Below, piece by piece: positions 18,230 to 24,705 of a DNA stretch of 64,000 bases (the first letter of the stretch is position 1; every line of letters starts with the position of its first letter). Below the pieces are notes generated by a model that worked only from the letters and a program-made list of their open reading frames with translations, was not told where the DNA came from and made no database searches. The stretch lies in assembly GCA_913055695.1 (NCBI GenBank), contig CAJXKF010000009.1, forward strand, positions 1-64,000, written 5' to 3'. Source of the DNA: an uncultured Methylophaga sp. Lineage in GTDB: Bacteria > Pseudomonadota > Gammaproteobacteria > Nitrosococcales > Methylophagaceae. The translations under genes and the position numbers were made by a program.

Positions 18230-18682
18230 TCAGGATTCTGCTTTCTGCTCCAGATGAAACTGGGCACCATCTTCAAAGACTTCATGTTCCAGCTGCAGGA
18301 TATCGGTATCTTCTTCCTGGGCGCGGATTAACTGACCGTTGACTTCACTGCCCATGGCCATTTCCAGCAGACGGTAATAGAGATTGCCGTTAATGCGGGC
18401 CTTGGGGGCCAGTTCCACATGATTGGAGACAAACACATTGCCGTTGACCTGGCCGTTAATGATCACATTGGGCACGCGGATTTCACCATCAATACTGCCA
18501 TGGTCACTGAGCGTCAGTACGGCAGTGTCATCGCCGGTCGCATTGATGTTGCCTTCAATGCTGCCATCAACCCGCAGACCGCCACTGAAACTGATATCAC
18601 CTTTTATATGAGTATGCCGGCCAATCAGCGTATCAATGCGGCTGGTCGACTTCTTTTTCTTGGCTTTGTTTTTTTTGAACAT
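18230..18682 (-). CDS. Bactofilin (polymer-forming cytoskeletal protein)
   Basis: Bactofilins polymerise without nucleotide into filaments that help place cell-wall enzymes or polar structures. The 150 residues have a basic N-terminus (KKNKAKKKKS), then a repetitive beta-helix core of about residues 18-120 with the period seen in GDISFSGGLRVDGSIEGNI and VIINGQVNGNVFVSNHVEL, and an acidic tail. It lies eight bases after the DUF6776 gene and shares the order argC-DUF6776-bactofilin-erpA with Pseudomonas. The function in this organism is not shown by the sequence. Confidence 0.93.
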   Translation of the reverse strand: MFKKNKAKKKKSTSRIDTLIGRHTHIKGDISFSGGLRVDGSIEGNINATGDDTAVLTLSDHGSIDGEIRVPNVIINGQVNGNVFVSNHVELAPKARINGNLYYRLLEMAMGSEVNGQLIRAQEEDTDILQLEHEVFEDGAQFHLEQKAES

Positions 18683-18690
18683 GATTTACC

Positions 18691-19389
18691 TCATGATGCC
18701 GGGGAGGGGCTGACTTCCCACTTGAAGGTCCGTTCGGTCAGGGTTTTACCGGACTGTCTCAGCATGACCCGAATACTTTCCGGTTGTTCATTCTCTGCTA
18801 ATTTCACTGTGCCTTCAAGCACTTGCACATGGCGAATATTCAGCGCCTGGGTTTCTACCAGTCTTGACTGGCCCTCACCGTTACCTGTCAGATTCAGCGT
18901 AATCAGCACATCGCCTTTAATCGACTTGGTAATACGCTTACCCTGGGTCAGCACAATCCGATACAGATAGGATGACGCATCCTCGCTGACTGGTCGCAGA
19001 TGCAGTTCACGAACCTGTAATTCACTACTGGCATTCCCCTGGGTGATGTTCTGATAGAACAGCAGTTCTTTATTGAGATCAATGACCCTATCCTGTAACA
19101 GCTGTAATTCCGTTTGCAGTTTGGAATCGGTGGCCTGCTGCAGCGCCTGCATCTGATTGATGCCCATCAGCTGTTCCTGCAGTTGCCGGTTTTCCTCGGT
19201 GAGGCGCTGATTTTCTGCCAGCATCTGAGTATGCTGAGATTGCAGACCGGACAACTTTTCAAGCTGTTTCTGCTGCCATTGCTGTCCCCAGACAAAAATC
19301 GTCGCGATAGTCAGCGCAATGCCCAGCAGGATCAGTAACAGACAGCGGTATGGTCGCCGAGGATGGATAACATATGGACGATCAAGCAT
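18691..19389 (-). CDS. DUF6776-type membrane-anchored coiled-coil protein
   Basis: The 232 residues comprise a short cytoplasmic start, one membrane helix (about 14-34, CLLLILLGIALTIATIFVWG), a coiled coil rich in Gln, Leu and Glu (about 35-115), and a C-terminal beta-rich domain ending in FKWEVSPSPAS. The layout and position, directly between argC and a bactofilin gene, match the uncharacterised family found there in Pseudomonas. Its start overlaps the argC stop by one base (TGATG on the minus strand), so translation is coupled. It may anchor or organise the bactofilin, which is inference only. Confidence 0.75.
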   Translation of the reverse strand: MLDRPYVIHPRRPYRCLLLILLGIALTIATIFVWGQQWQQKQLEKLSGLQSQHTQMLAENQRLTEENRQLQEQLMGINQMQALQQATDSKLQTELQLLQDRVIDLNKELLFYQNITQGNASSELQVRELHLRPVSEDASSYLYRIVLTQGKRITKSIKGDVLITLNLTGNGEGQSRLVETQALNIRHVQVLEGTVKLAENEQPESIRVMLRQSGKTLTERTFKWEVSPSPAS

Positions 19390-20417
19390 CAGGGCATGGT
19401 CGCGATTACATTGATGCCGGTGGTTTCCGCGAGGCCGAACATGATGTTCATGTTATGAATCGCCTGACCTGAGGCGCCTTTCACCAGGTTATCGATAACC
19501 GACAGAACCACCACGGTATCGCTGCCCTGTGGCTGATGCACGGCAAGGCGACAGACATTGGATCCGGACACGCTGCGGGTTTCGGGCATACTGCCGGCTG
19601 GCATCACATCGACAAAGGGTTCATCGCGGTAGCGGTTTTCAAACAACGCCTGCAGATCAGTTTCTTTATTCAGTCTGCCATACAGTGTGGCATGAATACC
19701 GCGCACCATTGGCGCGAGATGCGGGATAAAAGTGAGGTCTACCGCTTCACCACAATGGCTGGATAAAATTTCTCTGATTTCCGGCAGGTGACGGTGGCCA
19801 CTGACACCATAGGCTTTGAAGCTGCCACTGGTTTCGGCCATCAGCATCGGGATCGCGGCTTTACGGCCAGCTCCGCTCACACCCGTTTTGGCGTCAGCGA
19901 TGAGATGTTTTGGATCAATCAGGCCCGCTTCCAGCAGGGGCAGAAAGCCCAGCTCGGTGGCAGTGGGATAACAGCCGGGCACCGCGACCAGCTGGGCCGA
20001 GCGGATGTGCTCTCGATTGATTTCCGGCAGGCCGTAAACAGCGAGATCGAAAAGTTCGGGACAGGTATGCGGTGTGTTGTACCAGTGTTCCCAGACTGCC
20101 TGATCCTTGAGACGGAAATCCGCTGACAGATCAATGACCCGGGTGTTGCGCTTGATGAGTTCGGGAACCAGCGCCATCGCCACGGTATGCGGCGTCGCAA
20201 AAAACACAACATCGCATTGTGCCAGCACCTCGGGATCGGGTTCGCTGAAGCTCAGATCGAGGTGGCCGCGCAGGTTGGGAAATAACTCACTGACAGCCAT
20301 GCCAGCTTCACTGCGTGAAGTGATGACTTCCAGCGACACTTCAGGATGGTTGGCCAATAGCCTCAGCAATTCCACACCGGTGTAACCGGTGCCGCCAACA
20401 ATACCGACTTTGATCAT
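19389..20417 (-). CDS. argC: N-acetyl-gamma-glutamyl-phosphate reductase
   Basis: ArgC reduces N-acetylglutamyl phosphate to the semialdehyde with NADPH in arginine synthesis. The start at 20417 gives [20 protein letters not shown], the canonical N-terminal Rossmann motif, and 342 residues. A frame open 22 codons further upstream gives no family similarity there. The catalytic cysteine lies in [12 protein letters not shown] (about 150), and the C-terminal HNMNIMFGL is conserved. It is 85 bases downstream of the adenylate cyclase homologue and is followed with overlap by the DUF6776 gene. No other arg gene is in the window. Confidence 0.96.
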
Positions 20418-20502: not shown

Positions 20503-23124
20503 TCAGGCCGGATTGAAAAGCTGTTCCAGGCGCTGTTTATGTTGCATATAGACCGCCGTGGGGGTGTAGCCATTATCAGTAAATTTAAGGCTGTTGAGGT
20601 AGACCGGGTACCGGAGCTGCCGGCCTCGCAGGCTGAGCACCAGTTGCTGAACCTGCGCAAACAGGGCCGGATCATCGGCGCGGCCCTCAAACCACTGCTG
20701 CCCGCAGACAATAGTGCAGTCAGCATCAAGAGCACTGTTAGTCATGCTGACTTTGACCGGCAGATAGCTGCTGTTTTGTTTGGTCACGGCCACTGGGGTG
20801 GCCCGCCACTGATGTTGCTGACGGCTCAGATGATAAAACCGCAGTTGCGGGATCTGGTTACGTTGACGTATTTCGGACAGAAACAACTGCAGATGAGCAA
20901 TTAAAGTGGCTTCTGTCAGATGCTGATACTGCTGCCTGATAAGATTAGCGAACTCATCCAGCAGGTAGCAGACAATGGTATTTTTCTCAAGATAAATGAA
21001 GACATTGATCCGCTCTGCCGACTGGTATTGCAGTAGCGTGTTGAACAGGCCGTCCTTATCCAGATAGCGATCCAGTCTCAGTGCTTCAAATTGCCGGTTC
21101 TGACTGGCAAGGTTGTGCCACAGATCCTGAGACAGAGGCTGCTTTACCATGCTTAGCTGTTGCTGCTGCCAGTGCAGGCTGTAAAGGCGGTCGGCCATGG
21201 TCAGTAAAAACCGGCCCGAGCCGGGAAAACGGCGGTAATGGTTAATCATTTGCTCAAGCAAGTCATCCATTCGCTGGCTGATGGTCTGACCGAAAACCGG
21301 TGTCGGACACCAGCTTTGCCAGCTTGTTTGCGAGCCGGGCTGCCAGGCCAGAATATGTTCTGATAATGCCAGTACCGCCTGCGGACCCCGGAAACGAAAG
21401 CTATGGCAGAGGCCATGACTGGTAAATACCAGACCCTCAATCGAACTCACCAGACTCTGGTGGAAAGAACTGTAATTCAGCGGATCATTGAGCCGACTCG
21501 ACAGTTGCAGGCCCTGCTGAGACAGTCTGTCGCCAAGCTCGGACTCCAGGTTGATAAACAACCTGATATCGACCGGCGTTTCCACTTGAGCAGTGTGGAT
21601 AGCCTGAAAATTCAGATCGAGTTCAGGCAGTGCACTGCGAAACAGTCGCTGACATGCTTCCACCACCACAGCGGTGCTGACTTTGCCATGTTGATCGTTG
21701 ACACTGAGCCAGTTGCTGCGGCTCAGCAGGTGGTTGCCGATAGCATAGGCCAGCACCTGCAAGAGATGCTCGTGCCGGACCAGACTCTGCTCGCCCGGCC
21801 GATTCAATGGCTGACGGCTCAAGCACCACTGTGAATCATCGCGAAAACGCGTCAGAAACAGGCGCTCACTACCTTGGGCCGGTCTCAGCGCCCGGGGCAG
21901 CAGGGTCGCCTGGTTAACAGCAGGGGCATAACGCAGGCGCTGCAGTGTTTTCAGCTGCTGCAAATCTTCAGCGGCATTCAGATTATGCTGACGGGCAAAC
22001 TCAGCAAGCTCATTGATAAGCTCAGCGCTGAACCGACCCAGCGCCTGGTAATCATTTTCGATAACGGCGATATCATCCAGGCCATGATCCAGCTGTTTCA
22101 GTTTGTCTGTGTCCCAGCCCCATTCACGGGCAAGCTTATCGACAAACTGGCGACGCCAGGGCAGCGGGGCCTGTATGACAGTTTTGCTGAGTCTTTCCGG
22201 TATGTTCAGGTAAAAATCGCGCTGTAAGTCGCTCCAGTTAGCTTGCTGTCGCAGGCTGAGCAATTTGAGGTAGGGCGGATCAATTCGGCAGGCATCATGA
22301 TGTTGCTGATACAGCTGCTGCTTTAATAAAGGTGAAAGCGCAGACGTGGCAGGGGCCGACAGGCTGTGACGGAGATAAGCCAGTGACAGCAGGGCATCAC
22401 CCTGTTGCAGGCTGTCAGTCAACGCAGTGAGGTTTTGATGAAACAGCGTGTCGGGGTTAAAACGACCCACTTCACCAAAGTCAACCAGGCTCACCGGATT
22501 CAGCAGACGCTGGGACCGCATCTGAGTGACGCTTGCAGCGTAATTCTGATCCTCTTCAGGACTGGTCAGCCACCAGTAAGGCTGGCTGCCGGCCAGTACC
22601 AGTCCGGCAGTATAGAACTGATCGCGCTCCCAGGCCGACAATACACCGCGGGCCAAGTCTGCTTCTGATAGCAGCTGGCTATCGAGTTCGATACCATTTT
22701 CAGCTGCCCAGGCACAAACTGCCTCGACTTTTTGTTGCAACTGGGTACGCTGGGTTTCTTTGAGCAGATTGCTGTAAAGCAGCCAGAGTTCAAAGCGGGG
22801 ACGTTCAGGATAACTCAGCAGGCCATTGGGATTGATGAGATAGAGACCGCGTATGGGGTAACGGCGCAAGGCCTTCTGCCGGTAGCGGAAGTTGCTTTCC
22901 AGTTGTCTGGCCCGGTCCAGCGCGGATCTGGTCGGACGATAATCAATCAGACCTGCCGGGGTTTCATCACTGATATACCCCGGCAGCAGTTTGGCATTAA
23001 TATGAAACAGGAACGGCAGCAGCTCAATAATCAGACTGTGTCGTGCCGGCGCCAGCTGAAGCAGTCTCTGGATGCGTTCATGGTTATGCGTTTGGAAGAA
23101 ACGCTGTGCCTGAACCCTGTCCAT
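20503..23124 (-). CDS. Class I adenylate cyclase homologue, catalytic signature lost
   Basis: This 873-residue protein is collinear with class I (CyaA-type) adenylate cyclases: FHINAKLLPGYISDETPAGL (about 40-59), IRGLYL (91-96), DQFYTAGLVLAGSQPYWWL (168-186), VDFGEV, REWGWD and a long C-terminal part. In active enzymes YLxGS is followed by SDLDxW, whose aspartates bind the metal. Here the aligned residues are YLINP (95-99) and PRFELW (109-114), so Gly-Ser has become Asn-Pro and Asp-Leu-Asp has become Arg-Phe-Glu. The family GEDCG-QH segment before DEFYR is missing and the SPYKS region reads QQGDA. The frame is intact and lies 15 bases after purH, so it is expressed rather than decayed. I predict no cyclase activity; the role is unknown. 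Confidence 0.8.
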   Translation of the reverse strand: MDRVQAQRFFQTHNHERIQRLLQLAPARHSLIIELLPFLFHINAKLLPGYISDETPAGLIDYRPTRSALDRARQLESNFRYRQKALRRYPIRGLYLINPNGLLSYPERPRFELWLLYSNLLKETQRTQLQQKVEAVCAWAAENGIELDSQLLSEADLARGVLSAWERDQFYTAGLVLAGSQPYWWLTSPEEDQNYAASVTQMRSQRLLNPVSLVDFGEVGRFNPDTLFHQNLTALTDSLQQGDALLSLAYLRHSLSAPATSALSPLLKQQLYQQHHDACRIDPPYLKLLSLRQQANWSDLQRDFYLNIPERLSKTVIQAPLPWRRQFVDKLAREWGWDTDKLKQLDHGLDDIAVIENDYQALGRFSAELINELAEFARQHNLNAAEDLQQLKTLQRLRYAPAVNQATLLPRALRPAQGSERLFLTRFRDDSQWCLSRQPLNRPGEQSLVRHEHLLQVLAYAIGNHLLSRSNWLSVNDQHGKVSTAVVVEACQRLFRSALPELDLNFQAIHTAQVETPVDIRLFINLESELGDRLSQQGLQLSSRLNDPLNYSSFHQSLVSSIEGLVFTSHGLCHSFRFRGPQAVLALSEHILAWQPGSQTSWQSWCPTPVFGQTISQRMDDLLEQMINHYRRFPGSGRFLLTMADRLYSLHWQQQQLSMVKQPLSQDLWHNLASQNRQFEALRLDRYLDKDGLFNTLLQYQSAERINVFIYLEKNTIVCYLLDEFANLIRQQYQHLTEATLIAHLQLFLSEIRQRNQIPQLRFYHLSRQQHQWRATPVAVTKQNSSYLPVKVSMTNSALDADCTIVCGQQWFEGRADDPALFAQVQQLVLSLRGRQLRYPVYLNSLKFTDNGYTPTAVYMQHKQRLEQLFNPA

Positions 23125-23139
23125 TGACTGCTGGGCCTG

Positions 23140-24705
23140 TTAATGTCTGAAATGGCGCATGCCTGTGAAGACCATGGCGATACCGTGCTCATTGGCAGCG
23201 GCAATAACCTCATCATCACGCATTGAACCGCCCGGTTGAATTACGGCTTTGATGCCGGCTTCAGCAGCGGCATCGAGACCGTCACGGAACGGGAAGAAGG
23301 CATCGGAAGCCATTACCGCACCGGGAACCACCAGACCGGCATCCTCTGCTTTGATACCGGCAATACGGCTGCTGACCACACGGCTCATCTGACCGGCACC
23401 GATGCCGACCGTCTGTTGGTTTTTGGCATAAACAATGGCATTGGATTTCACAAACTTGGCCACCCGCCAGGCAAACAACAGATCCTGCATCTGTTCATCG
23501 CTCGGTGCAGTGTCGGTCACGACTTTAAGTTCATCGGTCTGAACCAGTGCGTCATCACGATCCTGGACCAAAAGACCACCGTTGACACGTTTGAAGTCGA
23601 GGCTGTCAGCCGGTTTTTTAACAAACTCGCCGCAGGCAAGCAGGCGTACATTGGCTTTCTGAGCGACCGCGGCGCGCGCCTCATCAGAGACTTTTGGCGC
23701 GATAATCACTTCAACAAACTGACGCTCGATAATGGCTTTGGCAGTCTCGGCATCCAGCTCGCGGTTGAAGGCGATAATGCCGCCGAAAGCCGAGGTCGGA
23801 TCGGTCTGAAAAGCCAGATCATAGGCGGCAAGCAGGTTATCGGCTGTGGCCACACCGCAGGGATTGGCATGTTTGACAATGACGCAGGCCGGTGATTCAG
23901 GGAAGGCTTTGACGCATTCCAGTGCCGCATCGGTATCAGCGATATTGTTGTACGACAGTTCCTTGCCCTGCAATTGCACAGCAGCACTGATGGTGCCGCT
24001 TTCCAGCTGACCTTCGACATAAAAGGCCGCCTTCTGGTGGGGGTTTTCACCGTAGCGCATGTCCTGTTTCTTGTGAAACTGACTGTTGAAAGTGCGTGAA
24101 AAGGTGCTCATATCGCCGTTATCGGCACGTTTGCCCAGATAATTAGCAATCGCACCGTCGTAGTGTGCTGTGTGCTCAAAAGTTTTCACGGCGAGATCAA
24201 AGCGGGTGGCATCATCGACGCCGCCATTGGCTTCGATTTGCTCGAGCACGCGGCCGTAATCAGCAGGGTCAATCAATACCGTGACATCGGCATGGTTTTT
24301 GGCCGCGGCGCGCAGCATAGTCGGACCACCGATATCAATATTCTCAATCGCCATCGGCAGGGTGCAGTCATCACGGGCGATGGTTGCTTCAAAAGGGTAG
24401 AGGTTAACCACGACCAGATCGATAGCCGCGATATCATGCTGCTGCATGATCGCATCATCGGTGCCGCGGCGGCCCAGCAGACCACCATGAATTTTAGGAT
24501 GCAGGGTTTTAATGCGCCCAGCCATCATTTCCGGGAAGCCAGTGTGTTCGGAGACTTCTTTCACCGGCAGGCCAGCCTCACTCAACAGTTTGGCGGTACC
24601 GCCGGTAGACAGCAGTTCCACACCGAGTCGATTCAGTTCCTGTGCCAGTTCAAGCACACCAGTCTTGTCAGAGACGCTCAACAGAGCACGTTTGATCTTA
24701 TTCAT
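23140..24705 (-). CDS. purH: Bifunctional AICAR transformylase / IMP cyclohydrolase
   Basis: PurH catalyses the last two steps of IMP synthesis. The 521 residues have the N-terminal MGS-like cyclohydrolase domain ([28 protein letters not shown]) and the larger transformylase domain with the catalytic KHANPCG (about 266-272) and the C-terminal [20 protein letters not shown]. It follows fis by 35 bases, as in Pseudomonas, where purD usually comes next. Here purD is absent and the adenylate cyclase homologue follows instead. Confidence 0.98.

Follow-up and report, generated by a model that had tools for sequence, protein, structure and literature searches.

The class I adenylate cyclase homologue encoded by an uncultured Methylophaga sp., here called pseudo-CyaA, appears from its sequence to be catalytically dead. 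The losses are not an accident of a single genome, since they run through 44 aligned copies of the family, and the cAMP pathway around the gene has been largely dismantled in the same family. Full-length homology, lost catalytic residues, and purifying selection together place the protein among pseudoenzymes, as one derived from the class I cyclases. The window analyzed is a stretch of 64,000 nucleotides from contig CAJXKF010000009.1 (assembly GCA_913055695.1), and the genome it belongs to (G000) comprises 2.6 Mb and is 99.98% complete. The family refers to f1 of the genome collection (57 genomes), which we take to be the Methylophagaceae of GTDB, and f2 refers to the other family of the order in the collection. 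In the NCBI taxonomy, Methylophaga is filed under Piscirickettsiaceae. The features considered were as follows.

20503..23124, minus strand: class I adenylate cyclase homologue predicted to be without a catalytic centre (pseudo-CyaA), 873 aa; from the open reading frame, Pfam, NCBIfam, and alignment
22540..23124, minus strand: N-terminal (former catalytic) domain, residues 1-195; from PF12633 at residues 7-185 and a low-confidence model
22828..22833, minus strand: Asn98-Pro99, replacing the canonical Gly102-Ser103 (E. coli numbering); from the alignment
22783..22800, minus strand: PRFELW (109-114), replacing SDLDIW, with Arg110 and Glu112 in place of both aspartates; from the alignment
22624..22629, minus strand: codons 166/167, approximate site of the deleted GEDCGSTQH segment (E. 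coli G175, Q178, L181, L182); from the alignment
22384..22404, minus strand: residues 241-247 (QGDALLS), aligned to the canonical SPYK..K stretch (S257, P258, K260, K264); from the alignment
23140..24705, minus strand: purH, upstream neighbour
19389..20417, minus strand: argC, downstream neighbour, with a probable ATG start at 20417

The initial annotation had described an intact frame of 873 codons located 15 bases after purH, with homology to CyaA along its whole length, and both points were borne out. The reading frame starts with ATG, contains no internal stops, and lies on the minus strand, which the annotation had not given; a gap of 15 bases separates it from the purH stop. For argC, the mechanical open reading frame has an earlier TTG start than the probable ATG. 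Two Pfam domains were found above their cut-offs, PF12633 at residues 7-185 (1.6e-29) and PF01295 at residues 255-778 (7.3e-32), and the two-domain architecture is thus present at full length. Nine NCBIfam class I models matched the protein, several of them end to end, and the equivalog cut-offs were missed by all nine (best 357 versus 1300 bits). No other gene with PF01295 or PF12633 was found in the window genome, and a search of that genome for class III cyclases returned none. Within the window, the CRP-site pattern occurred once against 2.2 expected matches, and the promoter and terminator counts were the same as in shuffled sequences. Genes for a bactofilin and a DUF6776 protein (18230-19389) stay together with purH and argC across many loci of the family, as they do in the f2 genome G058, forming a conserved neighbourhood that is uncharacterised.

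By analogy with nucleotidyltransferases and class I cyclases in general, the Gly-Ser pair, the DxD motif, and the lysines are catalytic. The alignment with class I cyclases upheld the substitutions previously reported for the window protein, together with the deletion of the GEDCG-QH stretch and the loss of SPYKS. The E. coli residues S113-D114-x-D116 correspond to P109-R110-x-E112, W118 is retained as W114, and S257-P258-x-K260 is replaced. Compared with E. coli CyaA (848 versus 873 aa), the window protein is collinear over its full length and shares PF12633 and PF01295, and it keeps the landmarks N16, R19, P58, G60, W118, K136, and Y187, as well as G195, W200, W358, W360, W464, and D723. In contrast, G102-S103, D114/D116, C120, F154, the G175-L182 segment, R188, W249, P258, K260, and K264 are missing. 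The residues expected to hold Mg-ATP are the very ones that were lost. A GS/DxD motif elsewhere in the chain was looked for and not found: a displaced G[ST]...[ST]DxD pattern was absent from the window protein and from all 47 family sequences, and it occurred once each in E. coli, G058, and G060. A looser pattern, in which GS is followed by two acidic residues at a spacing of two, was matched at residues 179-192 (LAGS..PEED), but this stretch aligned with the canonical LAGK region and was rejected as the motif.

Comparable losses were seen across the 44 family copies (excluding G005, G047, G045, and G038) when these were aligned with 32 canonical sequences, of which 29 came from genomes of the class and the others from E. 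coli, Xenorhabdus, and G058. G102 was present in 0 of 44 family copies versus 32 of 32 canonical ones, S103 was kept in two copies, and S113 in one. For the metal positions, D114 was kept in two copies and D116 in 16 of 44; both aspartates were found only in G025, which is without the Gly-Ser pair. Either Asp or Glu occupied both positions in 11 of 44 copies, so that some relatives may still bind metal or nucleotide; the window protein itself has Arg and Glu. C120, F154, R188, W249, and P258 were found in none of the 44 copies, and neither were K260 and K264 as aligned, although the region 242-264 aligns less tightly than the motifs do. The columns of G175, Q178, L181, and L182 were deleted in every copy, and W118 was kept in 38. 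The catalytic loss is common to copies from three genera, and is thus old. Beyond the motifs, 30 of the 96 columns invariant among canonical sequences were kept in at least 90% of the family copies and 66 fell below 90%; many of these 66 sit outside the catalytic site, and this wider erosion slightly lowers confidence in the pseudoenzyme reading. Additionally, the family has gained 14 conserved columns of its own (M, L, P, R, A, D, G, W, Q, and F), which are scattered and include only one acidic residue.

A pseudo-CyaA match was found in 48 of the 57 family genomes, and 39 of these encoded it in one frame of 840 aa or more. The copies of G015 and G034 end with their stretch or contig, and about seven others (G005, G016, G029, G031, G038, G045, and G047) were shortened, interrupted, or split, some perhaps through assembly error. 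The nine genomes with no match include several incomplete drafts, although the completeness rating of one of them, G002, is 100%. Across ten pairs, some sharing genomes and hence not independent, the dN/dS of the gene ranged from 0.096 to 0.195 (the pair including the window gene has a dS of 1.13 and is less reliable), and across all 30 family pairs, some with saturated dS, from 0.063 to 0.195. In the same ten pairs, purH ranged from 0.014 to 0.067 and argC from 0.019 to 0.085, indicating weaker constraint on pseudo-CyaA than on its neighbours. The canonical cyaA pair G058/G060 had a dN/dS of 0.110. Pseudo-CyaA is hence under selection in most lineages of the family and dispensable in some. 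That selection acts on something other than cAMP synthesis, as the initial annotation had proposed, is supported by the motif losses together with these ratios.

Constraint also differed along the protein. When the gene was partitioned in ten of the 30 family pairs, residues 1-190 had a lower dN/dS than residues 191-600 in all ten, and a lower one than residues 601 to the end in seven. Among all 30 pairs, the N-terminal ratio was below that of the whole gene in 26, equal in two, and above in two (G030/G042 and G042/G031). By these ratios, the former catalytic domain is not the part that is being let go.

The genomic position of the gene was highly conserved. It was adjacent to purH in 47 of 47 family loci and followed by argC in 44, while the remaining three stretches end first. 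In f2, G058 encodes a cyclase with an intact GS...SDFDIW between purH and argC, followed as in the family by DUF6776, bactofilin, and erpA, and in G060 purH precedes a canonical cyaA. Neither purH nor argC was found beside other canonical cyaA genes (0 of 29 loci, each read with at most 1.5 kb on either side). The gene for pseudo-CyaA therefore sits where the order has its purH-linked cyaA and is not an additional copy, and the simplest reading of this conserved locus is that an ancestral cyclase lost catalysis in place. However, the protein tree rejected a clade of the family and G058 (AU p 0.007), which counts against a simple loss in place, and the G058 cyclase is not the nearest branch to the family. 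Long branches may cause this rejection, and we infer a loss in place, although the cyclase may instead have been replaced. The G058 and G060 systems resemble the family in adjoining purH, but differ in the intact motif, a phosphodiesterase at the CpdA level, and a CRP with S83.

As judged by their aligned motifs, dead class I homologues are not confined to the Methylophaga family, since one further lineage or more has them too. A class I profile search matched 109 of 369 gammaproteobacterial genomes. Two of these belong to the family, and three (G246, G377, and G417) were dropped because the match fell short of the N-terminus, leaving 104 that were scored. The canonical motif was found in 101 of them, including G362 and G260. 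The three exceptions were G198 and G406, which come from one family and are without both motifs, and G149, alone in its order here, which keeps Gly-Ser and is without DxD and the 175-182 segment. The G149 homologue (L250) might represent a halfway point in such a loss. Within the order that includes G198 and G406, class I homologues were found in 10 of 54 genomes (L264-L273, L284), and the 11 copies spanning the motif had neither GS nor DxD at the aligned positions, the loop between these being shortened; G477 and G453 encode an additional, more divergent copy. All of these resemble pseudo-CyaA in being class I proteins with a lost catalytic motif. Unlike the family, however, the very divergent G198 type has a shorter inter-motif loop and partly keeps the 175-182 segment, and G149 retains the Gly-Ser pair. 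The dead copies form one side of the unrooted protein tree (support 90, with long branches). A single origin is possible on such a tree, but several independent losses are favoured by the differences between the deletions and by how far apart the lineages are taxonomically.

The remainder of the cAMP pathway was also altered in the family. Class III cyclases were found in two of 57 family genomes (one borderline) versus four of six f2 genomes. One family genome, G024 (L255), combines a dead class I homologue with a strong class III match in a frame of 737 codons, possibly a regained source of cyclic nucleotide. The CpdA phosphodiesterase model NF008359 scored 215-239 bits in four of six f2 genomes, two of them over the 225-bit cut-off, versus no match at that level in the 57 family genomes, where weak matches in 11 reached at most 41 bits. 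CRP was matched in 50 family genomes, of which 40 were read, one (G045) in part, so that residue counts refer to 39. E72, R82, and S83 are the cAMP contacts of CRP. The first two were kept in 39 of 39, and position 83 was Ser in four of 39 versus four of five in f2. Its replacements in the other 35 were Met (18), Lys (4), Thr (4), Gly (4), Gln (2), Ala (2), and Ile (1). In most of the family CRPs read, the EVAEISY of E. coli is replaced by RTEEISY-like letters. A search of the window genome for crp recovered an orthologue (L092:2395-3078, contig C2) with Met for Ser83, which passes the CRP equivalog cut-off (276 versus 266 bits); a second cNMP-domain protein matches FNR. Three f2 genomes (G061, G059, and G062; L126, L129, and L131) have no class I match and a CRP, with S83 kept in two and Asp in one. 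Given the retention of E72 and R82 in all 39 CRPs and the passing of the equivalog cut-off in the window genome, CRP may still have a cyclic-nucleotide input. Overall, cAMP control seems to have been abandoned in the family while CRP and the cyclase protein stayed.

For the CRP of the window genome, Xanthomonas Clp is a comparable CRP homologue. We take Clp likewise to be changed next to R82, with its E99 equivalent to position 83 of E. coli CRP. Given this equivalence, none of the 39 family CRPs read has the Glu of Clp at that position. Clp binds cyclic di-GMP and needs Glu E99 for this (PMC10333796).

Structural searches were limited by model quality. A full-length prediction from a three-row alignment had a mean pLDDT of 36.6 and was set aside. 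A low-confidence model of the N-terminal domain (mean pLDDT 54.3) placed strands at 91-97 and 110-117 and a helix at 123-142. This weak model was compared with known folds for a polymerase-beta-like nucleotidyltransferase fold, whose palm strands would carry the GS and DxD positions; most of the top 20 VIA rows were nucleotidyltransferases by title (Z 5.4-6.4, below the trust level), including HalB, which we take to be one, and the best Foldseek E value was 1.7e-3. A PDB sequence search with the single protein returned nothing. A profile search likewise returned no class I cyclase; its matches, a ferredoxin-like protein (E 0.85) and two sequences of the interleukin-18 receptor (E 0.002), were taken as due to chance. 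Full-text searches of the open-licence literature returned no title that deals with a catalytically dead class I cyclase or with the present protein. Although pseudoenzymes as such are familiar, a family-wide class I cyclase pseudoenzyme with a largely dismantled cAMP pathway appears to be new.

These observations are best explained by an f1 ancestor in which a normal class I cyclase would have been encoded between purH and argC. With cAMP signalling then given up, the cyclase would have lost its Gly-Ser, metal, and lysine residues along with the active-site segment, CpdA would have been lost, and CRP would mostly have lost its cAMP-contacting serine. The large cyclase protein would have been kept in most lineages for a second, non-catalytic role played by the N-terminal domain together with the C-terminal half, which in E. 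coli CyaA is the regulatory one. Most likely, these parts would bind a partner protein or a small ligand. The pseudoenzyme was thus probably kept as a non-catalytic regulator or scaffold, and a role as a nucleotide sensor or regulator is possible. A broader proposal is that the class I scaffold serves some unrecognised purpose apart from catalysis, perhaps in active enzymes too, which would have become visible since two or more gammaproteobacterial lineages kept the protein after abandoning cAMP synthesis; we consider this possible but less likely than not.

Alternatively, pseudo-CyaA may be a relic that lost its function with the cAMP pathway, decays slowly, and persists through its linkage to purH. 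The roughly seven of 48 shortened or interrupted copies, the nine of 57 genomes with no match, the constraint weaker than that of the neighbours, and the erosion of 66 of the 96 canonical-invariant columns would fit such decay. However, the low dN/dS in both sets of pairs, the 39 long intact frames, and the age of a loss common to three genera make a relic unlikely. Another enzymatic activity, either a different nucleotidyl transfer or cyclase activity at a rebuilt site, could have been kept or gained, as might be suggested by the stronger constraint on residues 1-190 than on 191-600 in every pair tested, by the 11 copies acidic at both metal positions, and by the nucleotidyltransferases heading the fold lists of the weak model. 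This is rendered rather improbable by the Gly missing from 44 of 44 copies, the metal positions that vary between copies, the replaced lysines, and the single acidic residue among the scattered, newly conserved columns.

The boldest specific form of the regulator or scaffold reading is that pseudo-CyaA has become the protein input of CRP, binding and controlling this retained regulator now that cAMP has disappeared. CRP was indeed found in 50 of 57 family genomes while S83 was replaced in 35 of the 39 read, but the two proteins did not always co-occur: CRP was without a pseudo-cyclase match in G002, G027, G048, G051, and G056, and the pseudo-cyclase was without a CRP match in the drafts G025, G034, and G040. 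We regard this form as quite doubtful. Enough cAMP might still be produced by an unrecognised mechanism, given that CRP retains E72, R82, and R123, and that any cAMP would need a source in a window genome where neither a class III cyclase nor a second one of class I was found. This is highly improbable, as Gly-Ser, DxD, the deleted segment, and the lysines are all missing from the window protein and the family is without a CpdA-level phosphodiesterase.

The preferred reading, a pseudoenzyme probably retained as a regulator or scaffold, bears on how the family is annotated and understood. The label "class I adenylate cyclase" can mislead for most of a bacterial family. Its cAMP-CRP pathway has been taken apart, with the cyclase site, the phosphodiesterase, and most CRP serines gone and CRP and the cyclase protein remaining. 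What class I cyclases are known for is the production of cAMP. The combination of family-wide catalytic death, as predicted from the motifs, and continued selection would represent a natural separation of function in a large protein, much of which is non-catalytic.
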